A DNA stretch of 33,176 bases, from assembly GCA_015478785.1 (NCBI GenBank), contig JADMKO010000048.1:1-33176 (forward strand). The letters run 5' to 3'. The stretch is from Chryseobacterium sp. (lineage in GTDB: Bacteria; Bacteroidota; Bacteroidia; Flavobacteriales; Weeksellaceae). How positions within the stretch are numbered: position 1 is the first letter of the stretch; each line of letters opens with the position of its first letter. Shown here piece after piece: positions 2,794 to 15,892 of this stretch. The notes under the pieces are model-generated. The model saw only the letters and a list, made by a program, of their open reading frames with translations. It did not search any database and had not been told where the DNA came from. The position numbers were made by a program, and so were the translations under genes.

Positions 2794-3882
2794 ATGCATC
2801 ATTTTCATCAGCTAAAAACAACCAAAGTAAGCAAGGAAACCAACGACTGCGTTAATATCGCATTTGAAATTCCTGAACATTTAAGAAATTTATTCAAGTA
2901 TAAACAAGGACAGTACATTAATGTGCGCCGAATAGTTGACGGTGAAGATCTGCGCCGTTCTTATTCCATTGTTAATGCGCCATCAGAAGGCAACCAGGAA
3001 ATTGAAATCCTGGTAAAAAACATGGAAGGAGGCCGGGTTTCCTCTTTTCTGAATCACGAAGTTCAGATAGGAGATCATCTGGAAATACTGGAACCGATGG
3101 GCCATTTTTACACCCATCACCATCCCAGCAACCAGAAGACCTACGTTGGTTTGGCTGCGGGAAGCGGAATTTCTCCTGTGCTTTCCAACCTGAAGGAAGC
3201 ATTGTATCAGGAACCGGAATCCCGTGCTTATCTCTTCTTCAGCAACAGAAGTTTTGAAAACATTATTTTCAGAAAAGAAATAGATGAACTCGCTGAGCAG
3301 TTCGGTGGAAGACTGAAAGTTATTTATCTTCTATCAAGAGAAAAACATTACGAAGATGAACTTTTTGAAGGAAGAATTTCTGCTGAAAAACTCGATCGCC
3401 TCTTTGAACGTTTCCCGGAAATTCCTGTTCAGGAAACCACTTTTTTCATCTGTGGCCCGTCAGAAATGATCAAGGACATTTCAGAATATCTGAAAAAAGA
3501 CAGGAAAGTACCTTCGTTGCAGGTAATGTACGAATACTACTCGGCACCGGATGATGATGAAAATGCAGAAAAGAGCGACGAGTTCAAAGCAATCCCGAAT
3601 CTGGAAAGCATGGTGACGCTGATCATTGATGATGATGAATATTCCTTTCATCTCAATTCCAAGAAAAACAGTATCTTAGACCAGGCTCTTGCGGAAAAAC
3701 TTCCGGTTCCATTTGCCTGCAAAGGTGGCGTTTGCTGTACCTGCAAAGCACAGGTAATGGAAGGAGAGGTATTTATGGAAAAGAATTTTGCCCTTACGGA
3801 AGACGAAGTGGCAAAAGGCTTTGTATTAACATGCCAGTGTCACCCAACTACGAATGTTGTGATGCTGAATTATGATGTTTAA
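2794..3882 (+). CDS. paaE: 1,2-phenylacetyl-CoA epoxidase reductase subunit PaaE
   Basis: NAD(P)H-dependent flavin/iron-sulfur reductase that passes electrons to the PaaA di-iron centre of phenylacetyl-CoA epoxidase. The 362 residues hold an N-terminal FAD-binding barrel with the RRSYS flavin motif (54-58), a nucleotide-binding domain with GLAAGSGISP (119-128) and the C-G-P-S motif (220-223), and a C-terminal plant-type 2Fe-2S ferredoxin domain with cluster cysteines C309, C314, C317 and C347. Length and domain order fit PaaE. An acidic linker (about 253-265) separates reductase and ferredoxin parts. It is the first gene of the paa cluster, whereas in E. coli paaE follows paaABCD. Confidence 0.95.
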   Translation: MHHFHQLKTTKVSKETNDCVNIAFEIPEHLRNLFKYKQGQYINVRRIVDGEDLRRSYSIVNAPSEGNQEIEILVKNMEGGRVSSFLNHEVQIGDHLEILEPMGHFYTHHHPSNQKTYVGLAAGSGISPVLSNLKEALYQEPESRAYLFFSNRSFENIIFRKEIDELAEQFGGRLKVIYLLSREKHYEDELFEGRISAEKLDRLFERFPEIPVQETTFFICGPSEMIKDISEYLKKDRKVPSLQVMYEYYSAPDDDENAEKSDEFKAIPNLESMVTLIIDDDEYSFHLNSKKNSILDQALAEKLPVPFACKGGVCCTCKAQVMEGEVFMEKNFALTEDEVAKGFVLTCQCHPTTNVVMLNYDV

Positions 3883-3901
3883 CCTATTAAAAAGTACGAT
3901 T

Positions 3902-4159
3902 ATGACCCAGTGGAAATTTGACTCGATAATTGAAGAAGATAAAGAGCACAAAATAAAAGGGCTAAATATCTGGAGCCATTACTGGCATTGTACAGACCGG
4001 AAAATCGAAGTGAGAGATCCTTTTGAAAGTCAGGTTTATTATTTTAATGAATATGAAATTCACGACGGGCACGAGAAAGTAAACTTCGTTGCCGGCGAAT
4101 ACACCAACGGAAAGCTTGGACTGTATATCAAAGACGAATTAAGTGGGGAAAAACTTTAA
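3902..4159 (+). CDS. Unknown 85-residue protein inside the paa operon
   Basis: I do not recognise this family. The frame is open from 3872, where an ATG overlaps the end of paaE, but the ATG at 3902 is preferred: it gives an 85-residue soluble protein beginning MTQWKF and avoids an 11-base overlap. The protein is rich in charged and aromatic residues (several Trp, Tyr, His), has a single cysteine in a W-H-C stretch near residue 33, and shows no signal peptide, membrane segment or CxxC motif. It sits 19 bases after paaE and 38 before paaA on the same strand, so co-expression with the epoxidase is likely. A role in epoxidase assembly or regulation is possible from position only; I see no sequence evidence for one. 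Confidence 0.75.
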
Positions 4160-4197
4160 TATTTGGTTCCAAAAATAACGGAATCTGCGACAAAACT

Positions 4198-5136
4198 ATG
4201 GAGTTACAAAAATTTTTAGATTACGTGCAGGCAGAAAACAAGGTTGAGCCTAAAGATATGATGCCGGAGGATTACCGGAAATTGCTGGTACGCCAGATCT
4301 CGCAGCATGCGCACTCTGAAGTGGTGGGAATGCTTCCCGAAGCCAATTGGATCAGCAGAGCGCCTTCGCTCCGGAGAAAAATGGCTCTTCTGGCCAAAAT
4401 TCAGGACGAAGCTGGCCACGGTTTATATTTATATGCCGCAACCGAAACTTTAAATAACGGGGAAATCGCTGCCGACAGAGATTCTACCTACAACGATATG
4501 CTGGCCGGAAAAGCAAAATATTCCAGTATTTTTAATTATCCTACGCTCAGTTGGGCAGATATAGGAGCCATCGGCTGGCTTGTGGATGGTGCTGCCATTA
4601 TGAATCAGGTGATGCTAATGGGAAATTCCTACGGTCCGTATGCCAGAGCCATGGTGCGGATTTGCAAGGAGGAATCTTTTCACCAAAGACAGGGATATGA
4701 AATTCTGATGACGCTTTGCCGCGGAACCAAAGAGCAGAAAGAGATGGCACAACAGTCCCTGAACCGCTTTTGGTGGCCTGCGCTGATGATGTTTGGCCCG
4801 AATGACGACGCGTCTCCTAACTCACAGAAATCAATGAACTACCGCGTAAAAAGAGAAAGCAATGATGCGCTTCGCCAAAGATTTATTGATGTTACCGTTC
4901 CGCAGGCCGAATTTTTAGGATTGAAGGTCCCCGATGAAAACTTAAAATGGAATGAGGAAACGCAACATTATGATTTCGGCGAACTTCCGTGGGACGAATT
5001 TTATGAAGTTTTAAAAGGAAACGGTCCCGCCAATAAAAAACGCCTCGAAACCAAAAGAACAGCGCAGGATGAAAATGCCTGGGTGAAAGAAGCAGCGATA
5101 GCGTATGCGGAAAAACAAAATTCCGTTCTGAGTTAA
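4198..5136 (+). CDS. paaA: 1,2-phenylacetyl-CoA epoxidase catalytic subunit PaaA
   Basis: Di-iron monooxygenase subunit that converts phenylacetyl-CoA to the ring-1,2-epoxide. The 312 residues match the usual PaaA length. The ferritin-like di-iron ligand pattern is visible as E41, then E71-A-G-H74, then E159-S-F-H162, consistent with paired E-x-x-H helices. The segment around D130 with GAAIMNQ follows the family pattern. Start at the ATG at 4198, which follows a short AT-rich spacer. It is followed by paaB and paaC, giving the complete core of the multicomponent enzyme with paaE. Confidence 0.97.
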
Positions 5137-5159
5137 TTTAAAATCTATAATTTCAAAAT

Positions 5160-5441
5160 ATGAGCAATTTAGATGTGTGGGAAGTTTTCATTCAAACGAA
5201 ACCCGGTTTATCCCACAAACATGCAGGAACTGTACAGGCAGCCACTGCTGAAATGGCATTGCAAAATGCAAGAGACGTATACACCAGAAGAATGGAAGGA
5301 ACCTCCATTTGGGTCGTGCCAAGTAAATATCTCGTGACAAGCGAAGGCGTGGATAAGGAAGCATTCTTCGATCCGGCAGATGATAAACTGTACCGCCATC
5401 CTACGTTCTATCAGATTCCTAATGATGTGAAAAATATGTAA
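5160..5441 (+). CDS. paaB: 1,2-phenylacetyl-CoA epoxidase subunit PaaB
   Basis: Small subunit needed for assembly and activity of the PaaABCE complex; in characterised enzymes it bridges PaaAC heterodimers. The 93 residues have the normal length and the conserved N-terminal pattern WEVFIQTKPGLSHKHAG (7-23), plus the SIWVVPS segment (49-55) typical of PaaB. It starts 23 bases after paaA. No catalytic residues are expected in this subunit. Confidence 0.96.
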   Translation: MSNLDVWEVFIQTKPGLSHKHAGTVQAATAEMALQNARDVYTRRMEGTSIWVVPSKYLVTSEGVDKEAFFDPADDKLYRHPTFYQIPNDVKNM

Positions 5442-5507
5442 AAAAGCTTTCTCTCATCAGCCATCGGTCATCACCGAAGCAGATCAACGAAAGCCGAAAA
5501 CAAAATT

Positions 5508-6248
5508 ATGAAGAATTATATCTTAAAATTAGCCGATGATACCCTGATTATGGGACAGCGCCTTGCAGAATGGTGCGGAAAAGGTCCTTATCTGGAGGAA
5601 GATATTGCCCTCACCAATATTGCGTTGGATTATCTGGGACAAAGTTCCAATTTTTATAAATATGCCGCTCAGTTACAGGGTGAAAATAAAACAGAAGACG
5701 ATATGGCTTTTCTGCGTTATGAACATGAATATCTGAATTCCCATCTGGTAGAGCTTCCTAATGGCGATTATGCTCAAACCATTCTGAAAGTGTATTTCTT
5801 TTCTGTGTATCAGAGTCTGCTTTATTCAAAACTCTCTGATAGTGCTGATGAACAGCTGTCCGCTCTGGCACAGAAATCCTTAAAAGAAGTGAAATACCAT
5901 TATACTCATGCTGCTACTTGGGTAAAAGTTTTGGCTGCAGGAACAGAGGAAAGTACCTCGAGAATTCAGAAAGCTCTTGTTAACCTTTGGGAATACACCG
6001 GAGGTTTGTTCGATGAAGTAAAAGGCGAAACTGAACTGGTAACCTTAAATTTAATTCCCGACTCTACAACACTGTACGGCGACTGGAAAGGAAAAGTTGC
6101 TGAAGACTTTCAAAATTTCAGCCTCGAAATACCTGCTTCAGATTTTATGCAAAAAGGCAGCAGAACAGGATACCACACCGAATATTTCGGATACATCCTT
6201 TGTGAATTGCAGTACATGCAACGGGCATATCCCGGTTGTGAATGGTAA
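5508..6248 (+). CDS. paaC: 1,2-phenylacetyl-CoA epoxidase structural subunit PaaC
   Basis: Ferritin-fold partner of PaaA, structurally related to it but without an iron site, that forms the stable PaaAC heterodimer. The 246-residue protein shows the PaaC N-terminal signature: L-A-D-D-T-L-I-M-G-Q-R-L-A-E-W-C-G-K-G-P, beginning near residue 7. It also has the helical segment ending HAATWVKVLAAGTEES (about 134-149). The 66-base gap after paaB carries no obvious terminator. It is followed by paaD, so the core order here is E-x-A-B-C-D. Confidence 0.96.
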   Translation: MKNYILKLADDTLIMGQRLAEWCGKGPYLEEDIALTNIALDYLGQSSNFYKYAAQLQGENKTEDDMAFLRYEHEYLNSHLVELPNGDYAQTILKVYFFSVYQSLLYSKLSDSADEQLSALAQKSLKEVKYHYTHAATWVKVLAAGTEESTSRIQKALVNLWEYTGGLFDEVKGETELVTLNLIPDSTTLYGDWKGKVAEDFQNFSLEIPASDFMQKGSRTGYHTEYFGYILCELQYMQRAYPGCEW

Positions 6249-6286
6249 AACTAAACATATAATTCATTCAATATTATATTGAGAAA

Positions 6287-6757
6287 TTGACTTTGATTGA
6301 TTTAATAAAAATATTATCACAAATTCCTGATCCTGAAATTCCGGTGATCAATATTGTGGAACTTGGCATTGTCCGCGAAGCGAAGATGGTGTCGGAAAGT
6401 GAAGCAGAAATCATTATCACGCCCACGTATTCTGCGTGTCCCGCGATGTATAATATCGAAGAGGACATCATTAAACTTTTCAAAGAAATGGGAATTACGG
6501 CAAAAGTAATTACGGTCATTTCTCCGCCATGGACTACGGATTGGATTACGGATGAAGCAAGAGAAAAATTACAGGTTTACGGCATCACACCGCCCGAAAA
6601 AGGTGCCGATGAAGATCATTTGAACAAGCCAAAACCTTGCGCCAGATGTGGTTCGGAAAACACGAAACAGATCAGCCGTTTTGGGTCTACACTCTGCAAA
6701 GCAAGTTACCAATGTAATGACTGTTTGGAACCATTCGATTATTTCAAATGTCATTAG
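6287..6757 (+). CDS. paaD: PaaD, epoxidase maturation protein (DUF59/MIP18 domain plus zinc ribbon)
   Basis: PaaD is thought to help maturation of the iron-containing epoxidase components. Residues 11-100 form a DUF59/MIP18-like domain with IPDPEIPVINIVELGIV (13-29) and the conserved cysteine C51 in TYSACPAM. The C-terminal part is a zinc ribbon with C118/C121, C137, C143/C146 and C155. No in-frame ATG exists between the upstream stop at 6260-6262 and the conserved DPEIP motif, so translation probably starts at TTG 6287 (or TTG 6293). The gene lies 38 bases after paaC. Confidence 0.92.
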   Translation: MTLIDLIKILSQIPDPEIPVINIVELGIVREAKMVSESEAEIIITPTYSACPAMYNIEEDIIKLFKEMGITAKVITVISPPWTTDWITDEAREKLQVYGITPPEKGADEDHLNKPKPCARCGSENTKQISRFGSTLCKASYQCNDCLEPFDYFKCH

Positions 6758-6794
6758 TTTTCTTTAACTTTATATAATTAAATAATAATAAAAG

Positions 6795-7607
6795 ATGGCA
6801 AATTACGTGTACTCACAGTTCGACATGGAATCCAGAATGAATGGCCGGCTTAAAATCGCCTGGCTCAATCAGCCTGAACGAATGAATCCATTAACCAAAC
6901 CCCTTCTTCTGGAACTCGCAAGTTTTATAGAGTTTTACAGCCGTAACGAAGATACGCGGTGCATCGTTATCGCTGCAAAAGGCGATGTGTTTTCTTCAGG
7001 GCAAAATGTAAATTTTGAAGATACTGATACTAAAAATCAGGGCTCACCAAGAGAAGTGAAAAGACTGGTTACCGATTATTATAATCCGCTTATTTCCGCC
7101 ATCCGCTATGCAAGAAAACCCGTTATCGCTCTGGTAAATGGGCCTGCATCCGACACGGCCGCTAATATTGCTTTGGCGTGTGACATTACTTTAGCCGCAG
7201 ATACAGCGTATTTTGCCCAGATCTTTTCTCAAATCGGATTGATTCCTGACGCCGGCGGAACGTATTATCTACCTAAAAATATTGGAATGCAAAAAGCTGC
7301 TTACCTCGCATTTACAGGAAAAAAAGTGTACGCAAAAGAAGCCGAACAAATGGGAATGATTGCAGATGTTTTTCCAAAAAACGAATTTGAGGAAAAAGCT
7401 TTTGAAATTATTGAAGATATTGTAAACATGCCTACTCAGGCGTTGTGGCTCACCAAAAGAGCTTTCAGAAAAAGCCACGACAACAGGCTGAACGAACATC
7501 TGAGGTTGGAAAGTGAATATCAGAGTATGGCTGCTGCTTCCGAAGATTATGCAGAAGCCATTGAAGCGCATTACCAGAAAAGAAAAGCCATGTTCAAAGG
7601 CAGATGA
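6795..7607 (+). CDS. Crotonase-family PaaG-like protein with altered oxyanion loop (paralogue 1)
   Basis: Crotonase-fold protein of 270 residues, clearly paralogous to the next gene. Both share the LVTDYYNPL/LVTDFYNPL segment, the GLIPD motif and the CoA-binding C-terminal helices ending KRKAMFKGR/KRKPVYKGK. The GLIPDAGGTY motif (148-157) keeps D152, the position of the catalytic Asp of PaaG isomerases. However, the loop that normally reads NGPAVGAGA is NGPASDTAAN (115-124), so the glycines supplying the second oxyanion-hole amide and the helix start are replaced by Asp-Thr-Ala. The first oxyanion segment FSSGQ (66-70) is retained. It may be a divergent isomerase, a hydratase with other substrates, or a non-catalytic partner of the downstream PaaG. 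It ends the first paa transcript, just before a terminator. Confidence 0.85.
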   Translation: MANYVYSQFDMESRMNGRLKIAWLNQPERMNPLTKPLLLELASFIEFYSRNEDTRCIVIAAKGDVFSSGQNVNFEDTDTKNQGSPREVKRLVTDYYNPLISAIRYARKPVIALVNGPASDTAANIALACDITLAADTAYFAQIFSQIGLIPDAGGTYYLPKNIGMQKAAYLAFTGKKVYAKEAEQMGMIADVFPKNEFEEKAFEIIEDIVNMPTQALWLTKRAFRKSHDNRLNEHLRLESEYQSMAAASEDYAEAIEAHYQKRKAMFKGR

Positions 7608-7629
7608 TTTTTGAACATTTTTAAAATAG

Positions 7630-7658
7630 CGGTTTCCGAAAAAGGGAGCCGTTTTTTT
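7630..7658 (+). terminator. Intrinsic terminator after the first paaG-like gene
   Basis: CGGTTTCC pairs with GGGAGCCG (G-U pairs included) around a GAAAAA-type loop and is followed by seven Ts. It lies 22 bases after the stop of the first paaG-like gene and would end a paaE-to-paaG1 transcript. Confidence 0.75.
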
Positions 7659-7701
7659 GTGGATTTAAAATTGAGTTGATCTGAATATCGTCTAATTGTT
7701 G

Positions 7702-7709
7702 TATTTTCG
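7702..7709 (+). promoter_or_regulatory. Putative -7 box before paaG (TATTTTCG)
   Basis: TATTTTCG differs from TAnnTTTG at one position and sits 26 bases before the paaG ATG and 44 bases after the preceding terminator, so a separate promoter is plausible. No well-spaced -33 element was found. Confidence 0.4.
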
Positions 7710-7734
7710 TCAGGTTACAAAATATTTTTAAATT

Positions 7735-8535
7735 ATGATTACTCAACTGGACATCGAATCCCATTTTGATGGTAAACTGATGATTGCTTATCTCAATAAC
7801 GATAAGACCATGAATGCGCTCAACAGGCCGACTCTAAAGGATTTACAAAACTTTTTCATTCATTGCAATGAAGACGACAACGTCCGCGTAGTTGCACTTT
7901 CCGGAAGAGGCCGCGCTTTCTGTTCCGGCCAGGATCTCGCTGCCGCATTTGCGGATCGGGATGAAAAAAATGATATTTCTATCGTTAAAAAGCTCGTCAC
8001 GGATTTTTACAACCCGCTCGTTTTGGAAATCACGCGTTGCAGAAAACCGGTAATCTCTTTGGTGAATGGTCCTGCCGTAGGCGCCGGAGCCATGCTCTCA
8101 CTCATCTGCGACTTTGCCATAGCTTCAGAAAAAGCGTATTTTTCCCAAGCATTTTCCGGCATCGGCTTAATTCCGGATACCGCCGGAACTTATTTCCTTC
8201 CAAAACTATTAGGACGGCAAATGGCCAATTATCTTACTTTTACAGGCAAAAAACTATATGCTGAAGAAGCCAAAAACTTAGGATTGATAGCGGAGGTTTT
8301 CAGCGAGGAAGAATTTATGACTAAATCCATGGAAATACTTGAAAAGCTGTCAGAAATGCCAACATCAGCATTCAAATTTACGAAACAGGCTTTTGCAGAA
8401 TCTTATGATAACACCCTGAAACAACAGCTTCGCTTGGAAGCAGAACTTCAGCAACGCGCAGCCAACACAGAAGATTTCAGTGAAGGGGTTGCCGCATTCT
8501 TAGAAAAAAGAAAGCCCGTTTATAAAGGGAAATAA
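7735..8535 (+). CDS. paaG: 1,2-epoxyphenylacetyl-CoA isomerase PaaG (paralogue 2)
   Basis: Crotonase-superfamily isomerase that turns the ring epoxide into oxepin-CoA and probably also shifts double bonds later in the pathway. The 266 residues show the first oxyanion segment FCSGQDL (62-68), the canonical second loop NGPAVGAGAM (111-120), and the GLIPD motif with D148 at the position of the catalytic Asp. The motif continues DTAGTY where many homologues have DxGGT. Length is normal. Of the two adjacent paralogues this one keeps all the expected catalytic features, so I assign the symbol here. It is flanked by terminators on both sides and may be a single-gene transcript. Confidence 0.92.
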   Translation: MITQLDIESHFDGKLMIAYLNNDKTMNALNRPTLKDLQNFFIHCNEDDNVRVVALSGRGRAFCSGQDLAAAFADRDEKNDISIVKKLVTDFYNPLVLEITRCRKPVISLVNGPAVGAGAMLSLICDFAIASEKAYFSQAFSGIGLIPDTAGTYFLPKLLGRQMANYLTFTGKKLYAEEAKNLGLIAEVFSEEEFMTKSMEILEKLSEMPTSAFKFTKQAFAESYDNTLKQQLRLEAELQQRAANTEDFSEGVAAFLEKRKPVYKGK

Positions 8536-8555
8536 CAATATTCATTTTAGTCTAC

Positions 8556-8589
8556 AGATAGTTTTGGGTTTTCCAAAACTATCTTTTTT
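8556..8589 (+). terminator. Strong intrinsic terminator after paaG
   Basis: A perfect 12-bp stem (AGATAGTTTTGG with CCAAAACTATCT), a GTTTT loop and a run of six Ts, starting 20 bases after the paaG stop. It overlaps the promoter region of paaH, whose candidate -7 box begins at 8591. Confidence 0.9.
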
Positions 8590-8590
8590 G

Positions 8591-8598
8591 TATCTTTA
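8591..8598 (+). promoter_or_regulatory. Putative -7 box of paaH (TATCTTTA)
   Basis: TATCTTTA matches TAnnTTTG except at the last base. It lies directly after the terminator T-run and six bases before the paaH ATG at 8605, so the mRNA would be nearly leaderless, starting at or very near the start codon. Confidence 0.45.
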
Positions 8599-8604
8599 GC
8601 GTTT

Positions 8605-9738
8605 ATGAAAAACATTGGAATTATCGGTTCCGGAACCATGGGAATCGGCATAGCACAGGTAGCAGCATCATCCGGCTGCAAGGTTTATCTTTATGATGCC
8701 AATATCGCTCAGACTGAGAAATCTCTTGGCGCACTGCGGTCTACACTTGCAAAACTTGTGAATAAACAAAAGATAACACAGGAAGAATCTGATGGGATTA
8801 CTGGCCGTATTATTTCATGTGTGTCACTTTCGGAATTTAAGAATTGCGATTTGGTGATTGAAGCCATTATCGAAAATGCAGAAATTAAAAAGAAAGTTTT
8901 TGCGGAGGTAGAATCTACAGTTTCCGAAAACTGCATTATCTCGTCGAATACTTCTTCCATTTCCATCACCTCACTTTCGGCGGATTTGCAACATCCGGAA
9001 AGATTTATCGGAATTCACTTCTTCAATCCTGCTCCGCTAATGCCTTTGGTAGAAATCATTCCGGGGCTTTTAACGAAGAAAAATTTAGACTTCGAAATAT
9101 CAGAATTAATGAAATCCTGGGAAAAAATCCCAGTGATAGCGAAAGATATACCCGGGTTTATTGTCAACAGGATTGCAAGACCGTTTTATGGTGAAGCACT
9201 GCGAATTGTCGAAGAAAATATCGCTACCCCGGAGCAGGTAGATGATGCGATGAGAACGCTTGGAAATTTCAGAATGGGACCTTTTGAACTGATGGACCTG
9301 ATTGGAATTGATGTAAATTTTGCAGTAACCACCACGGTTTACAAAGATTATTTCTACGATCCGAAATATAAACCTTCTCTCCTGCAACAACGAATGAGCG
9401 AGGCCAGACTCTTGGGCAGAAAAACGGGAAAAGGATTTTACGATTATGCTGAAAATGCGGCGAAACCGGAACCTTTGAAAGATGAAAAATTGTACGAAGA
9501 GGTTTTCATCCGAATTATTTCCATGCTTATTAACGAAGCTGTAGAAGCCAAAAGACTGAAAATTGCCAGCGACGAAGATCTGGAAATGGCAATGCAAAAA
9601 GGCGTAAACTACCCAAAAGGCTTGCTAGCTTGGGGAGCAGAAATTGGATATGATAAAGTTTCTGACACGTTGCAGAATTTGCATAATAAATATCAGGAAG
9701 AAAGATATCGGCAAAGTCCGGCATTACAGAAAGCATAA
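8605..9738 (+). CDS. paaH: 3-hydroxyadipyl-CoA dehydrogenase PaaH
   Basis: NAD-dependent 3-hydroxyacyl-CoA dehydrogenase acting on 3-hydroxyadipyl-CoA late in phenylacetate breakdown. The Rossmann motif is GSGTMG (8-13), followed by SSNTSS (113-118) and the active-site HFFNPAPLMPLVE (138-150) with the His-Glu pair H138/E150. After the first 3HCDH C-terminal domain (about 185-280, ending KTGKGFYDY) there is a second, shorter 3HCDH repeat (about 300-370, with LINEAVEAKRLKIAS). At 377 residues it lies between single-domain enzymes (about 285) and E. coli PaaH (about 475). A different acyl chain preference is possible, but context favours PaaH. It starts a third paa transcript with paaI and paaZ. 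Confidence 0.9.
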   Translation: MKNIGIIGSGTMGIGIAQVAASSGCKVYLYDANIAQTEKSLGALRSTLAKLVNKQKITQEESDGITGRIISCVSLSEFKNCDLVIEAIIENAEIKKKVFAEVESTVSENCIISSNTSSISITSLSADLQHPERFIGIHFFNPAPLMPLVEIIPGLLTKKNLDFEISELMKSWEKIPVIAKDIPGFIVNRIARPFYGEALRIVEENIATPEQVDDAMRTLGNFRMGPFELMDLIGIDVNFAVTTTVYKDYFYDPKYKPSLLQQRMSEARLLGRKTGKGFYDYAENAAKPEPLKDEKLYEEVFIRIISMLINEAVEAKRLKIASDEDLEMAMQKGVNYPKGLLAWGAEIGYDKVSDTLQNLHNKYQEERYRQSPALQKA

Positions 9739-9784
9739 AATCAAACTCCGGGTTTGTTAAATAATTAAACTTTACATCAAAATT

Positions 9785-10198
9785 ATGTCTCCTTTCGAAA
9801 TTGCACAATACATGCTCAATCAGGATTATTTCTCACAATGGATGGGCATTAAACTGATCGAGGTCCGTGAGAAATACTGCCGTATTGAAATGCCGGTGAA
9901 ACAGGAAATGATTAACGGACTGAAAACGGCTCACGGAGGAATTACATTTGCCTTTGCCGACTCAGCGCTGGCATTTTCGTCCAATAATACAAACGATGCT
10001 TCCGTTGCACTGAACTGTACCATTAATTTCACAAAAGCCGTGAAAATGGGAGATACTTTGACAGCTGAAAGCATGCTGATTGCGGACACCAGAAAAACTG
10101 CCGTGTATGATATTCAGATAACGAATCAACAAAAGCATTTGGTAGCAAGTTTTCGTGGAACCGTGTATAAAATAGACAAGAAAGTGACGGAATTGTAA
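9785..10198 (+). CDS. paaI: Hydroxyphenylacetyl-CoA thioesterase PaaI
   Basis: Hotdog-fold thioesterase that releases CoA from dead-end ring-hydroxylated or ring-opened intermediates, a housekeeping step for the pathway. The 137 residues contain N44, the H50-G-G catalytic turn and D59 in the following helix (FAFADSALAF), the Asn/Gly-His-Asp arrangement of the PaaI subfamily. Length is normal. It begins 46 bases after paaH, with a small CAAAC/GTTTG hairpin at 9743-9757 in the gap that lacks a strong T-run, so read-through from paaH is likely. Confidence 0.92.
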   Translation: MSPFEIAQYMLNQDYFSQWMGIKLIEVREKYCRIEMPVKQEMINGLKTAHGGITFAFADSALAFSSNNTNDASVALNCTINFTKAVKMGDTLTAESMLIADTRKTAVYDIQITNQQKHLVASFRGTVYKIDKKVTEL

Positions 10199-10255
10199 AT
10201 ATTAAATATAAAAATTCTTGCTCTGAATTTTAAAGACAACCAAAATTAAAAAAAA

Positions 10256-12748
10256 ATGAAATTAAAAAATTATATAGCCGGAAACTGGATCGAAGGTTCC
10301 GGTGAAGGAATAAAACTTTTGAACGCGGTAAACGGTGAACTGGTTGCGATATCCGATACCGACGGGATTAATTTTGAAGAAGCACTGCATTACGGAAGAA
10401 CTATAGGATACCAAAATCTGTCTGCAATGACCTTCTATGACCGCGGTGAAATGCTCAAAAAAATCGCACTTTACCTTCTGGAAAGAAAGAAAAAATATTA
10501 CGAACTTTCCTATAAAACCGGAGCTACACATGTCGATTCTTGGGTGGATATTGAAGGAGGCTTCGGTACATTTTTCACTTATAGCGGACTGGCAAAAAGA
10601 ATGTTACCTAATACTCCTTTTTGGGTAGATGGCGAAATACAGAAAATATCCGCCAACGGAACACATCTCGGAACGCATATTCTAACGCCAAGCGAAGGTG
10701 TTTCTGTACAGATTAATGCATACAATTTCCCGGTCTGGGGAATGATGGAAAAACTCTCCACCTCCTTGTTGGCTGGAGTTCCCAGTGTTATAAAACCTGC
10801 AACTCCCGGTTCTTACCTCACTCAGGCTGTGTTTCAGGATATGATTGAAAGCGGGCTGCTCCCCGAAGGCGCACTACAGTTAGTAGCAGGCGAACCCGGA
10901 AATATTCTTGATTACGTACAGGATGGAGATTCCGTATTATTTACAGGTTCGGCTTACACGGGAAGAAAATTAAAATCCTTGCCTTCCATCGCTGGAAATG
11001 CGGTACGTTTTAATATGGAGGCCGATTCTCTGAACGCCTCTATCCTTGGCTTAGATGCAAGACCGGGAACACCGGAATTTGATTTATTCATTAAAGAGGT
11101 TCGCAACGAAATGACCACAAAAGCCGGACAAAAATGTACTGCGATCCGAAGAATCATCGTTCCGGAACATCTGGTTGGCGACGTTCAGAATGCGCTGTCA
11201 AAAGCCCTGGATCAAACTAAGATTGGAAATCCGCTGAACAGGGAAACCAGAATGGGTGCCATTGTCGGAAAAAAAGAACTGGAAGTTCTGAAAGGAAAAA
11301 TAAATGAACTGAAATCTGAAACTGAACTTATCTACGACGGTCAGCATGAACTGCTGGACGCTGATTTTGAGAGTGGTGCATTCATATCGCCAAAAGTATT
11401 TTACAATGATCAGCCTTTTGAAAAGAATATTTCACACGAAGTGGAAGCATTTGGACCTGTGTCCACTTTGATGCCATATAAAGATGCTGAAGAAGCTGCT
11501 GCTCTGGCAAAACGCGGAAAAGGAAGCTTGGTAGGCTCCATTGTTTCTCATGATGAGAAATTTGTAGCAGAAACCTCATGGAAAATGGCTTCTGCGCACG
11601 GTAGAATTTTTGTTCTGAACCGTGATAATGCGAAGGAATCCACAGGTCATGGGTCGCCGTTGCCTACATTGATGCATGGCGGACCGGGAAGAGCGGGTGG
11701 TGGCGAAGAAATGGGCGGACTTAACGGACTTCATTTCTTTTTGCAAAAAACAGCCATTCAGGGATCTCCGGATATCCTCACTGCGATTACTAAAATTTAT
11801 ACTCAAGGTGCGGATAAAAAATATAGCGACAAACATCCGTTCCAAAAATATTTTGAAGAAGTGGAAATTGGCGATTCGCTGGAAACCGCCGGAAGAACAG
11901 TAACAGAAGCCGACATTGTTAATTTTTCTAATGTTTCCTGGGATCATTTTTATGCGCATACCGATGCAACAAGTTTAACCGGAACCATTTTCGATCAACC
12001 CGTTGCGCACGGCTATTTCATATTATCGGCTGCAGCCGGTCTCTTTGTTTCAGGAAAAAAAGGTCCTGTAATTGCAAATTACGGACTTGAAAATGCGAGT
12101 TTCTTCAAACCGGTTTATGCTGGAGATACCATCACAGTTTATTTGACTGCCAAAGAAAAAATCAACCGCGGTGTGAAGGGCAGAAATATTCCTTCAGGCG
12201 TTGTGAAATGGTTAGTAGAAGTCGTTAATCAGCGGGAAGAAGTGGTTTGTGTAGCCACCATATTGACATTGGTTGCAAAACAATCACCGTTTTTGGATCT
12301 AAAATTTAATACAGTCAGAAAATTATTGAACGGATTAACAGAAAATTCGGAAAGAAAATTCGGAATTATGTCGCCTCAAATGATGGTCGAGCATTTGGAA
12401 GAAGTCGTGCGGAAAGGCTTTGAAAACACGGATGCAAAAGACTTTGAGCAAATACCTGAAGAGCAAATGGAAAAACTTCAGGATTGGCTGTATACAAATA
12501 AGAAAATTCGTCCTGGCGCCCAATATCCTCTGTTGGAGGAAGGCGAAACCCCTATTCTGCGTCATAAAAATTTAAATATGGCAAAAGAGGCACTTTTAAA
12601 TTCTTTAAAGGAATTTCAGATTTATTATCGGGAAAATCCTCATGCTCACCATTACCATACAAAATTCGGAATGTTAAACAAAGAGATGTGGGAACTGTTT
12701 CAGAGAAAGCATTTTACGCATCATTTCGAACAGTTCGGATTAATATAA
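10256..12748 (+). CDS. paaZ: Bifunctional PaaZ (oxepin-CoA hydrolase / aldehyde dehydrogenase) with extra C-terminal DUF1569-like domain
   Basis: PaaZ opens oxepin-CoA with its hydratase domain and oxidises the resulting semialdehyde with its NADP-dependent aldehyde dehydrogenase domain. The dehydrogenase part (1 to about 520) shows E255 (NMEADS) and catalytic C294 (GQKCTAIRR). The MaoC-like hydratase part (about 535-675) shows D563 and H568, the same D-x4-H spacing as E. coli PaaZ, and the VAHGYF segment. Canonical PaaZ ends near residue 680; here about 155 residues follow. This extension resembles DUF1569 of the DinB-like four-helix fold: H713 in MVEHLEE, a His-rich H-x-H-H-x-H stretch, a K/T-FGMLNKEMW segment and a terminal H-F-T-H-H-F-E-Q-F-G. 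The domain call is from recalled family features. One uninterrupted frame spans the whole protein. Confidence 0.93.
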   Translation: MKLKNYIAGNWIEGSGEGIKLLNAVNGELVAISDTDGINFEEALHYGRTIGYQNLSAMTFYDRGEMLKKIALYLLERKKKYYELSYKTGATHVDSWVDIEGGFGTFFTYSGLAKRMLPNTPFWVDGEIQKISANGTHLGTHILTPSEGVSVQINAYNFPVWGMMEKLSTSLLAGVPSVIKPATPGSYLTQAVFQDMIESGLLPEGALQLVAGEPGNILDYVQDGDSVLFTGSAYTGRKLKSLPSIAGNAVRFNMEADSLNASILGLDARPGTPEFDLFIKEVRNEMTTKAGQKCTAIRRIIVPEHLVGDVQNALSKALDQTKIGNPLNRETRMGAIVGKKELEVLKGKINELKSETELIYDGQHELLDADFESGAFISPKVFYNDQPFEKNISHEVEAFGPVSTLMPYKDAEEAAALAKRGKGSLVGSIVSHDEKFVAETSWKMASAHGRIFVLNRDNAKESTGHGSPLPTLMHGGPGRAGGGEEMGGLNGLHFFLQKTAIQGSPDILTAITKIYTQGADKKYSDKHPFQKYFEEVEIGDSLETAGRTVTEADIVNFSNVSWDHFYAHTDATSLTGTIFDQPVAHGYFILSAAAGLFVSGKKGPVIANYGLENASFFKPVYAGDTITVYLTAKEKINRGVKGRNIPSGVVKWLVEVVNQREEVVCVATILTLVAKQSPFLDLKFNTVRKLLNGLTENSERKFGIMSPQMMVEHLEEVVRKGFENTDAKDFEQIPEEQMEKLQDWLYTNKKIRPGAQYPLLEEGETPILRHKNLNMAKEALLNSLKEFQIYYRENPHAHHYHTKFGMLNKEMWELFQRKHFTHHFEQFGLI

Positions 12749-12754
12749 TTGTAT

Positions 12755-13441
12755 ATGAACTTCGGAGAAAAAGTGGTAGTTTTCAATCAAAATCTGAAAT
12801 ATCATGGGAAACTTCCAAAAGATTTTCAGGTGATGAATCCGTTTCTGGACAATCCGGAAACGCTGCTGGTCATGAAGCAATTTTATGACAAATTCTACGG
12901 CGATAACAGGAGTAGAAAATTTGCTATCGGAATCAATCCGAGCCGTCATGGAGCGGGCGTTACGGGCGTACCATTTACCGATACCAAAAGATTGGAAAGC
13001 GCCTGCGGAATCAGAATGGAATCTGCACGAACACATGAAGTTTCTTCGGTTTTTCTTTATGAAATGATTGCAGCTTATGGCGGTGCAGCAGCGTTTTACA
13101 AGGACTTTTATATCAATTCTCCTTTTCCCTTGGCCATTACACGGAAAGGAAAAAACGGAATTTACGTGAATGCCAATTATTATGACGATAAAGAACTGTT
13201 TACTGCAGTGGAGGATTTTATGGTGGAATCGTTAAAAAAGCATATCAGTTTGGGATTGGACACCTCTAAAGTTTTTGTTCTGGGTGTGAAAAATGCTGCT
13301 TTTCTGAAAAAAATAAACGACCGCGAAAAATTGTTTGATCAGATGACGGTTCTGGAACATCCGAGATATATTCAACAATATAAATCAAAAGAAAAAGAAT
13401 TTTATATTGATAAATATTTATTGGCATTTAATCAAAAATGA
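12755..13441 (+). CDS. SMUG2-type uracil-DNA glycosylase family protein (DUF4918)
   Basis: Predicted monofunctional DNA glycosylase of the UDG superfamily, removing uracil or related damaged bases. The 228-residue protein has the family motif 1, GINPSRHGAGVTGVPFTD (59-76), and motif 2, LEHPRYIQQY (200-209), both diagnostic of the SMUG2/DUF4918 group found mainly in Bacteroidota. A TTG two codons upstream (12749) is possible, but the ATG at 12755 fits better. The gene starts six bases after the paaZ stop and is followed by a paaF-like gene, so it is almost certainly transcribed within the paa operon, an unexpected place for a repair enzyme. Confidence 0.87.
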   Translation: MNFGEKVVVFNQNLKYHGKLPKDFQVMNPFLDNPETLLVMKQFYDKFYGDNRSRKFAIGINPSRHGAGVTGVPFTDTKRLESACGIRMESARTHEVSSVFLYEMIAAYGGAAAFYKDFYINSPFPLAITRKGKNGIYVNANYYDDKELFTAVEDFMVESLKKHISLGLDTSKVFVLGVKNAAFLKKINDREKLFDQMTVLEHPRYIQQYKSKEKEFYIDKYLLAFNQK

Positions 13442-13465
13442 ATCGTCCCCCATTAATAAAAAATT

Positions 13466-14233
13466 ATGACACAAACCTTCGTTACCTCAGAAATTAAAAA
13501 CCGAATTGCTGAAATTACTTTCGGTACTCCGAAGAGCAACTCGCTTCCCGGACATATTTTAGAACAACTTGCCCAAACCATTTTAGAGGAAGGAGCAAAA
13601 AAAGAAGTGAAAGCAATCCTTCTGAAATCACAGGGCGAAAAAGCCTTTTGTGCTGGAGCTAGTTTTGATGAACTACTGGACATCACTGAGCTAGAGACTT
13701 CAAAAGAGTTTTTCGGTGGTTTTGCTAAAGTCCTGAATGCCATGCGCAGTTGCGGGAAAATTGTTGTGGTTCGGGTTCAGGGAAAAACTACCGGCGGCGG
13801 CGTAGGTATTGCCTGCGGTGCCGACTACTGCTTCGCAACCAACGATGCTTCTTTAGCTTTAACGGAACTGAATTTAGGAATCGGGCCTTTTGTAATTGGT
13901 CCTTTTGTGGAAAGAAAAATAGGGAAATCGCAGTTTGCTGCTATGGCCATCGATGCCGATTTCAGATCTGCAAAATGGGCAGAAACTCACAACATTTATC
14001 ATTCGGTGTCGTCAAGTATCGACGAGATGGATGCTGAGCTGGAACAGTTTCTCAACACGCTTTCGGGGCGAAGCGATGATGCACTCGCGCTGATCAAAAA
14101 AGTATCCTGGGAAGGCACAGAACATTTCGAACACCTGATGCCGGAACGTATTTATATGAGCGCCAGCCTGATTCTGGAAGATACAGCAAAAGAAAATATC
14201 CAAAAAATAAAAGAGCGTTTACGGACAAAATAA
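13466..14233 (+). CDS. paaF: Enoyl-CoA hydratase/isomerase, likely 2,3-dehydroadipyl-CoA hydratase PaaF
   Basis: Crotonase-family protein of 255 residues, last gene of the paa cluster, probably hydrating 2,3-dehydroadipyl-CoA before PaaH acts. Seen: first oxyanion segment FCAGASFDEL (61-70), second segment KTTGGGVGIACGADY (107-121), and E134 in TELNLGIGPF, matching the second catalytic Glu of crotonases. The position of the first catalytic Glu (GGG-x-E in rat crotonase) is Gly114 here. From memory, related Bacteroidota proteins annotated as methylglutaconyl-CoA hydratases share this trait, so a leucine-pathway role is an alternative. It lies 24 bases after the glycosylase gene and ends before a bidirectional terminator. 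Confidence 0.8.
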   Translation: MTQTFVTSEIKNRIAEITFGTPKSNSLPGHILEQLAQTILEEGAKKEVKAILLKSQGEKAFCAGASFDELLDITELETSKEFFGGFAKVLNAMRSCGKIVVVRVQGKTTGGGVGIACGADYCFATNDASLALTELNLGIGPFVIGPFVERKIGKSQFAAMAIDADFRSAKWAETHNIYHSVSSSIDEMDAELEQFLNTLSGRSDDALALIKKVSWEGTEHFEHLMPERIYMSASLILEDTAKENIQKIKERLRTK

Positions 14234-14263
14234 TTACAGTACCCGTTGCTAAAATGAACAATA

Positions 14264-14292
14264 AAATCCGTCTAAAAAAGGCGGGTTTTTTT
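14264..14292. terminator. Bidirectional terminator between paaF and the convergent methyltransferase gene
   Basis: A nine-pair stem (AAATCCGTC with GGCGGGTTT, including G-U pairs) around a TAAAAAA loop, followed by a T-run on the plus strand. The A-rich 5' flank gives a T-rich tail on the minus strand, and the 3' part overlaps the last codons of the minus-strand gene, so it can serve both converging transcripts. Confidence 0.8.
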
Positions 14293-15892
14293 ATGCTTTC
14301 AACATATTAATGGTTACTGTAGCCAACTCGGAATCAGGGAATTTCTTAAACAAATTTTCATCAGCAGTAAGGCCTACTTCTGCGCAAATTTTATGAAAAA
14401 CTTCTACTTCCACAATGTACTGATCTGAAAAACCGTGCGTTGCATCATAGGCCGTGGCTGCGGTTTCGCCCAGATGCTGACTCGTTATCTCCGGATCCAG
14501 CGTATGCAATTCAATGACGAGAAGTCCGTTCTTTTTAATATAAGGAAGCCATAAGCTGAGATGCTCTTTCAGATTTTCTTCCACCAATGTATTGGAAATT
14601 CTCTTTCCCCGGAATGCAAAAGCGCCTGTAGAAGAGGAAATTCGTTTCGGAAACTTATTTTGTGGTTCTTTCCAGATTCGGTTATGATCCAGAAAAGTGC
14701 GGATATTCAATAAATCCGAAAGGTTAATATCATAACTTTCTTTTAAATCTGTGGCCAGCTGATCGGGATTTCCAATATCTCCCCATATCACTTTTGCCCA
14801 GATGTCGTTGCTGATGAGATTCGCTCGGGTCACATCTAATGCTGCCTGATTATAATCAGCACCTACGAGAAACAGCGGATAATCTTCCAACATTTTTCCC
14901 CGAATTGTATGTCTTTCAATAGTCTCAAAAATATGTTGAATAAATGCTCCGTTACCACATCCCATATCCAGAATTCCTTTCGGTTGCAAATGAATAGGCT
15001 GATTGAAAATAGAAATAATAAAGTCCGTAACCATCTTAAAGTAAGCAGCATGAGCACCGCCACTTCCCCAAACATTCATCTTTCGGTCAACATGAATTTC
15101 ATCTTCATTTTCACTGATTGATCTCAGCTTTTCGGGATCTCCAAACAACATATCATTCATCCTGAGAAACATCGGAAGATACGAAACCGTAACGCCATAA
15201 GATGCAGCACGACGCGCAAAATAAAGTCCGCTTTCCGTAAATTTGAAAGTAGTATTGTTTTTTGTGAACCATCCCAAATGGGCAAGAAAATCCAGTATTT
15301 TTTCAAAATGATCAGGATCCCGGTGGAATTCTCCGGCCTGAAAAGAAGATTCCATAAAATATTTGTGAAACATTCCCTTCATTCCCAGCTGAACGATCAA
15401 TGGCCCGGCAATACAGCCCTCCAGATGTTTCAAAACCTGCCTTTCAACATCGTTCTGAAGAGGTTCTTCTGATAAAGTTAACCCAAAATTATTGTTGTAT
15501 TCTCCAAACAAATGCAGATGTGTTTCAAAACAGGAAGAATCAAAATTTTGAAAATCTGCAGAAATGGAGTGATGCAGAAATGGAATTACTTTCTCATACA
15601 TCGGAATTAATTCAATAAAAAATCTCGTTTTTTCGTTGACGGAAATTTTGACGATATCCTTTGCCTGTTCCACTTCATATTTCAAAAACCCTTGCGAAGC
15701 CACAGTTCGGAGCGCAACGTTCAAATACCCTTCATTGGACGGAAAATGTTCTAAAATTTGCTGTAATGTTACCTTTCCACGATCCAGAATGAAATGTAAA
15801 ATATTTTTCTTGTGTAGAGCAACAGCAATGGGCGCCGTTACAATTCCATCCAGATGTTTGAATATAGTACTCCGTAAATCTCTTTTATCCAT
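14291..15892 (-). CDS. Large class I SAM-dependent methyltransferase with duplicated N-terminal module
   Basis: Predicted methyltransferase of 533 residues; substrate unknown. The SAM-binding motif I is ILDMGCGNG (307-315), with an acidic motif II around GADYN (344-348). The N-terminal 300 residues hold two related winged-helix-like modules: FKHLDGIVTAPIAVAL near 11-26 resembles LKHLEGCIAGPLIVQL at 154-169, each followed by a helix-turn-helix-like segment. C-terminal to the core lie SSSTGAFAFRG (419-429) and GETAATAYDATHGFSDQY (475-492). The arrangement and C-terminal motifs recall, from memory, the methyltransferase parts of some polyketide synthase loading modules, but no PKS, acyl carrier or GNAT domain is present here. 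It converges on the paa cluster and probably has its own promoter near 15900. Confidence 0.8.
   Translation of the reverse strand: MDKRDLRSTIFKHLDGIVTAPIAVALHKKNILHFILDRGKVTLQQILEHFPSNEGYLNVALRTVASQGFLKYEVEQAKDIVKISVNEKTRFFIELIPMYEKVIPFLHHSISADFQNFDSSCFETHLHLFGEYNNNFGLTLSEEPLQNDVERQVLKHLEGCIAGPLIVQLGMKGMFHKYFMESSFQAGEFHRDPDHFEKILDFLAHLGWFTKNNTTFKFTESGLYFARRAASYGVTVSYLPMFLRMNDMLFGDPEKLRSISENEDEIHVDRKMNVWGSGGAHAAYFKMVTDFIISIFNQPIHLQPKGILDMGCGNGAFIQHIFETIERHTIRGKMLEDYPLFLVGADYNQAALDVTRANLISNDIWAKVIWGDIGNPDQLATDLKESYDINLSDLLNIRTFLDHNRIWKEPQNKFPKRISSSTGAFAFRGKRISNTLVEENLKEHLSLWLPYIKKNGLLVIELHTLDPEITSQHLGETAATAYDATHGFSDQYIVEVEVFHKICAEVGLTADENLFKKFPDSELATVTINMLKA

Follow-up and report, generated by a model that had tools for sequence, protein, structure and literature searches.

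A SMUG2-type DNA glycosylase gene linked to paaZ in the phenylacetate gene run of Weeksellaceae

In a genome of Chryseobacterium sp., the paaZ gene of the phenylacetate (paa) run is followed directly by a gene for a SMUG2-type member of the uracil-DNA glycosylase (UDG) superfamily. This pairing is a real, old, and family-specific arrangement of known enzymes which was not seen in the papers searched; literature queries on paaZ with uracil-DNA glycosylase, on DUF4918, and on Chryseobacterium paaZ returned nothing on the pairing. That the glycosylase repairs damage caused by the pathway is unproven. The window analyzed here is a stretch of 33,176 nucleotides from a 2.04 Mb Weeksellaceae assembly, for which the same-genus relative used in comparisons corresponds to Chryseobacterium lacus.

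The glycosylase gene and its place in the paa run

The glycosylase gene occupies positions 12755..13441 of the + strand and encodes 228 residues from an ATG start. Its product scores 54.6 bits against the Pfam UDG profile PF03167 (cut-off 24.3) and is matched over its full length by phmmer to PDB entries 5h0j/5h0k (245 bits, E 4e-72), which are titled "Pedobacter heparinus SMUG2" in Foldseek. An AlphaFold2 model (pLDDT 85) aligns to the same entries with a TM score of 0.91 and 50% identity over the model, whereas SMUG1 chains reach 0.67 or less. The asparagine of motif 1 (N61, in GINPSRHG) and residues H202, P203, and R204 of motif 2 (HPRY) are invariant in alignments of 23 and 24 relatives, and comparison with C. 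lacus reveals purifying selection (dN/dS 0.009/0.221, ~0.04). By profile, sequence, fold, and motifs, the gene encodes a genuine SMUG2-type DNA glycosylase with predicted activity, as the initial annotation (SMUG2/DUF4918 type) had proposed.

The structure of the P. heparinus enzyme is attributed to Pang et al. 2017, as cited in PMC8307549, and SMUG2-type enzymes are described there as having a broad specificity that includes oxidized uracils, hypoxanthine, and xanthine. The window protein shares with the solved one the full-length sequence match, the fold, and the motifs GINP..G.G.TG.PF and HPR. It differs in motif 1, which reads GINPSRHG in the window and close relatives but GINPGRFG in the solved protein, in the adjacency of its gene to paaZ, and in that its activity is a prediction. 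An ordinary UNG is also present in the genome (GQDPYH, HPSPFSAYRGFFG; split over two contig ends), so the SMUG2-type gene would be an accessory one. Confusion of the two paralogues was ruled out, the UNG being a separate gene with its own GQDPYH motif.

All genes from 2794 to 14233 point in one direction (+ strand). The run opens with a paaE-like reductase subunit of phenylacetyl-CoA epoxidase (2794..3882; TIGR02160 347 bits, below the cut-off of 420.8) and a small 95-aa ORF between paaE and paaA with no NCBIfam match (3872..4159). These are followed by paaA, the epoxidase catalytic subunit (4198..5136; TIGR02156 487.5 bits), paaB (5160..5441; TIGR02157 117 bits), paaC (5508..6248; TIGR02158 272.8 bits), and paaD (6287..6757; TIGR02159 160 bits), all four over their cut-offs. 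Two PaaG-like crotonases (6795..7607 and 7735..8535) have TIGR02280 as best NCBIfam family, both below cut-off; they stand in tandem (6795-8535) and are candidates for PaaG or PaaF. Next come a paaH-type 3-hydroxyacyl-CoA dehydrogenase (8605..9738; NF006124 509 bits, at cut-off), a paaI-type thioesterase (9785..10198; TIGR02286 118.6 bits, just below the cut-off of 118.9), and paaZ itself (10256..12748), an aldehyde dehydrogenase plus MaoC hydratase of a long, 830-aa type that matches TIGR02278 over residues 3-675 with 846 bits (cut-off 562.8).

At the distal end of this run, the glycosylase gene starts 6 bp past paaZ, whose stop ends at 12748, and 24 bp separate its own end from a gene of the enoyl-CoA hydratase (ECH) family that begins at 13466. 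The position reported at the outset was exact, both in the ORF boundaries and in the two gaps, and the embedding in a paa run is borne out by the TIGR02278 match of the upstream neighbor. A consensus scan of the window found no convincing promoter or terminator between paaZ, the glycosylase gene, and the ECH gene; a terminator-like hairpin lies past the ECH gene that closes the run (14263..14289, + strand), as one hit where 1.9 are expected by chance. Given intergenic distances of only 6 and 24 bp and no convincing terminator in between, transcription of the paa run probably continues through the glycosylase gene in the window. A search of the 250 nt upstream of the glycosylase for an own-promoter motif, TTG-N17..23-TANNTTTG, gave no pattern in any class of paaZ–glycosylase gap.

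Compared with the canonical paa cluster (gene list in PMC9493321), the window likewise groups paaABCDE and paaZ with paaG/H/I-type genes in a single run. It departs from that cluster in ending with a DNA glycosylase gene followed by a divergent ECH gene, and in the predicted C-terminal DinB-like domain of its PaaZ. Neither a DNA glycosylase nor a DinB-like PaaZ domain occurs in that published gene list. Beside the run, at 14291-15892 on the - strand, lies a gene for an AprA-like methyltransferase (AprA_N, WH_AprA, Methyltransf_36), which is kept there in many relatives.

Linkage to paaZ across Weeksellaceae and its history

The glycosylase gene was found in 72 of 148 Weeksellaceae genomes. Genomes were counted as informative when the glycosylase and a long-type paaZ lie on one contig, and in all 55 of these, one of which (G344) comes from the order sample, the glycosylase is located downstream of paaZ on the same strand, with gaps of 9-2866 bp. 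A second collection of named genomes, which overlaps with the family sample, yielded 80 loci. Of these, 67 are linked and one sits at the start of a contig, which puts the pairing in 67 of 68 family loci; the remaining 12 come from other Bacteroidota. Among the linked species are Chryseobacterium indologenes, C. culicis, C. taichungense, Kaistella haifensis, and K. pullorum, together with Elizabethkingia sp. and Amniculibacterium aquaticum. Because it is found across much of Weeksellaceae, the pairing is an old inherited arrangement and not an accident. The initial annotation had allowed for a chance insertion in the window strain and had called for a neighborhood survey; these two counts exclude the former and refute a pairing confined to this strain.

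Two copies lie close to contig ends. The apparently unlinked G056 copy has no paaZ end in its 267 bp upstream and different downstream neighbors, and the contig ends near both genes. The C. koreense copy (L197) lies at a contig start, and the fragment upstream of it resembles a gene (c21) seen elsewhere in the slot between paaZ and the ECH gene.

As controls, other genes were placed relative to paaZ in these 55 genomes: paaA lies within 20 kb of paaZ in 34 of 54 cases, the housekeeping gene dtd in 33 of 54, and another downstream neighbor in 31 of 39. The linkage of the glycosylase is tighter than any of these, a possible sign that selection and not inertia maintains it. Outside the family, no linkage to paaZ was seen at any of 18 loci from the order, 20 from the phylum, and 12 others. 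The glycosylase is nevertheless common in Bacteroidota outside Weeksellaceae and often shares a genome with paaZ, never as a neighbor. When genera are compared, UDG and paa genes occur together more often than expected (odds ratio 7, p 0.015, with kinship ignored). Sixteen genomes with a long paaZ have no glycosylase, and the gene is thus not always kept with the pathway.

The distance matrices of UDG and PaaZ are correlated (Mantel r 0.74, p 0.001), as are those of PaaZ and ECH (r 0.87). Mapped on the PaaZ tree, glycosylase presence requires 6 changes, at least 5 of them on starred branches, with paaZ retained; by itself, the PaaZ tree cannot tell gains from losses. In genomes without the glycosylase, paaZ and the ECH gene are adjacent or separated by other inserts. 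The deepest genus with a long PaaZ retains the paaZ–UDG pair (L101), and one copy of the glycosylase is split (G081) and another 5'-truncated (G030). On the UDG tree, the linked UDGs do not form one clean clade (8 changes), and the starred branches are compatible with one origin. The sequence data fit one ancestral association with at least 5-6 subsequent changes, which would most simply be losses.

On the PaaZ tree, separation of paaA needs 9 changes and that of dtd 8, whereas no relocation of the glycosylase is required. As proof of selection, this count of break events is suggestive only, because the PaaZ tree breaks up genus g26 and does not represent the species phylogeny, and because the Kaistella-type move looks like few events. 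An independent-pairs comparison of glycosylase presence with paaA proximity offered too few pairs, and independent rearrangements are too few to exclude plain inheritance.

The arrangement varies in detail. Among 104 non-redundant loci, 32 have paaZ and UDG uninterrupted by any gene of at least 100 aa, while 72 have intervening genes (59 on the same strand, 13 with an opposite-strand gene). In Chryseobacterium, the inserts between paaZ and the ECH gene are unrelated to one another and include DUF4241, SUKH/SMI1-type, CAAX protease-like, helicase, tail-collar, and transposase-like genes. In L066, L068, L092, L103, and L065 this stretch gathers unrelated inserts and resembles an insertion hot-spot. 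In Kaistella-type genomes, a paaZ–UDG–ECH block is flanked by citrate synthase and a further gene set and lies apart from paaA; the glycosylase stays with paaZ, and the epoxidase genes are elsewhere.

The flanking genes

The long PaaZ of the window extends ~155 residues beyond TIGR02278 (about residues 676-830; 12281..12745, + strand), and this extension is predicted to adopt a DinB/YfiT-like fold (model pLDDT 80). Four histidines of the extension are invariant (H54, H160, H163, and H164 in fragment numbering). Against DUF1569, the window copy scores 18.6 bits, below the cut-off, and an Elizabethkingia copy 23.9 bits, above it. In VIA-align, the model is closest to DinB/YfiT proteins, among them a mycothiol-dependent maleylpyruvate isomerase (Z 8.3), ClbS (Z 7.5), and BstA (Z 5.5), and nearly all rows with a Z of 5 or more belong to the DinB/YfiT superfamily, although Z values of this size in helical bundles can be mere fold resemblance. 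Thiol transferases have this type of fold, as does ClbS, the self-resistance protein against colibactin. With these metalloenzymes (maleylpyruvate isomerase, ClbS, BstA) the extension would share the fold, and its histidines are conserved; unlike them, it is fused to PaaZ, and sequence identity is about 7-20%. Given this identity, and Z values at or below 8.3, the likeness holds at fold level only.

A long PaaZ is present in 55/55 genomes with a linked glycosylase, and Weeksellaceae genomes with a short PaaZ have the glycosylase elsewhere. A long PaaZ without glycosylase is also found in another family. The DinB/YfiT-like extension of PaaZ likewise occurs in another family of the order, and in G007 the domain forms a stand-alone protein of about 200 aa.

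The downstream gene (13466..14233, + strand) had been called paaF-like. It does belong to the ECH/crotonase family (Pfam ECH_1, 100.7 bits) as a divergent member, but it falls far below every NCBIfam equivalog, PaaF is absent among its best 25 NCBIfam families, and no PDB match was obtained at 1e-20. On these profile comparisons, the paaF label is not supported and should be dropped. In relatives, this gene is nearly always near paaZ. Its active-site stretch keeps one glutamate, and the second one that is usual in crotonases is seemingly replaced.

Origin and possible role of the pairing

The account that we favor places the arrival of the glycosylase gene, at the site flanked by paaZ and the ECH gene, in an ancestor of the long-PaaZ Weeksellaceae, followed by largely vertical inheritance and several losses. 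The enzyme would most likely act beside UNG as an accessory base-excision-repair enzyme on deaminated or oxidized bases, with uracil derivatives, hypoxanthine, and xanthine as candidate substrates, as reported for broad-specificity enzymes of this kind. Its position would go back to an ancient operon layout preserved by descent, with no more than a weak benefit for expression, and the enzyme is probably not required for phenylacetate breakdown and would have no pathway-specific role. Taken as a whole, from a genuine SMUG2 glycosylase and ancestral insertion through vertical inheritance with losses to accessory repair and an old operon layout, this explanation is moderately probable.

Three other readings have to be weighed against it. 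The glycosylase may have been kept with paaZ because reactive compounds of the pathway damage bases (candidates are the ring epoxide, the PaaZ aldehyde, and oxidants released by the epoxidase), so that co-induction limits mutation, which we regard as possible though somewhat unlikely. The tight family-wide linkage (55/55; 67/68), the Kaistella-type block that stands apart from other paa genes, the breadth of SMUG2-type enzymes (PMC8307549), and a PaaZ bearing a domain predicted to have the fold used by thiol transferases and ClbS all speak for it, as do the description of the epoxides of the pathway as toxic (PMC9493321) and the discussion of PaaZ channeling as a protection from toxic intermediates (PMC6739347). 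However, glycosylase presence has changed at least 5-6 times while paaZ was retained, no linkage is seen outside Weeksellaceae even where UDG and paaZ co-occur, and 13 of 104 loci have opposite-strand genes in between, with other genes in 59 more. The UDG is also still found with paaZ in genomes whose epoxidase genes have a different location, and because it follows paaZ and not the epoxidase, the epoxide version of this reading is weakened more than the aldehyde version. A literature search found no paper reporting DNA damage by the phenylacetate pathway. In an extended form, which we consider quite improbable, paaZ would have become, in this clade, the core of a damage-control module, whose DinB-like domain captures electrophilic ring-opening intermediates while the co-expressed SMUG2 removes bases modified by those that escape.

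It is unlikely that the glycosylase is a mere passenger that happened to persist in a hot-spot collecting unrelated genes. The many unrelated genes between paaZ and ECH across Chryseobacterium speak for such a passenger, and related UDGs at 65-73% identity in many other contexts and families imply mobility; but unlike the other inserts, the UDG is present in most of the clade in constant order and strand, tracks the evolution of PaaZ, and is under strong purifying selection. Co-option of the UDG fold for a pathway metabolite, suggested solely by a position among CoA-ester enzymes, is extremely improbable, since the catalytic-motif residues and SMUG2 fold are conserved, also relative to the solved SMUG2 structure, and close relatives exist in genomes without the phenylacetate pathway. 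Inheritance with a weak benefit is thus a safer reading than the repair of catabolic damage.

If the link were functional, a central aromatic-degradation pathway would endanger DNA enough to keep a repair enzyme in its operon, and the damage-control module, if true, would amount to DNA repair built into a catabolic operon. Even if the link is not functional, a family-wide paa layout unmentioned in the papers searched is documented, and genomes that have or lack the glycosylase gene form a natural comparison set.

Outside the paa context, SMUG2-type genes repeatedly adjoin a DUF488 gene in several families (L175, L178, L128, L131, L133, L136). In two Proteiniphilum loci (L208, 4300-6846; L228, 7365-10681), an aldehyde dehydrogenase resembling 1-pyrroline-5-carboxylate dehydrogenase is encoded just upstream of the SMUG2-type gene.
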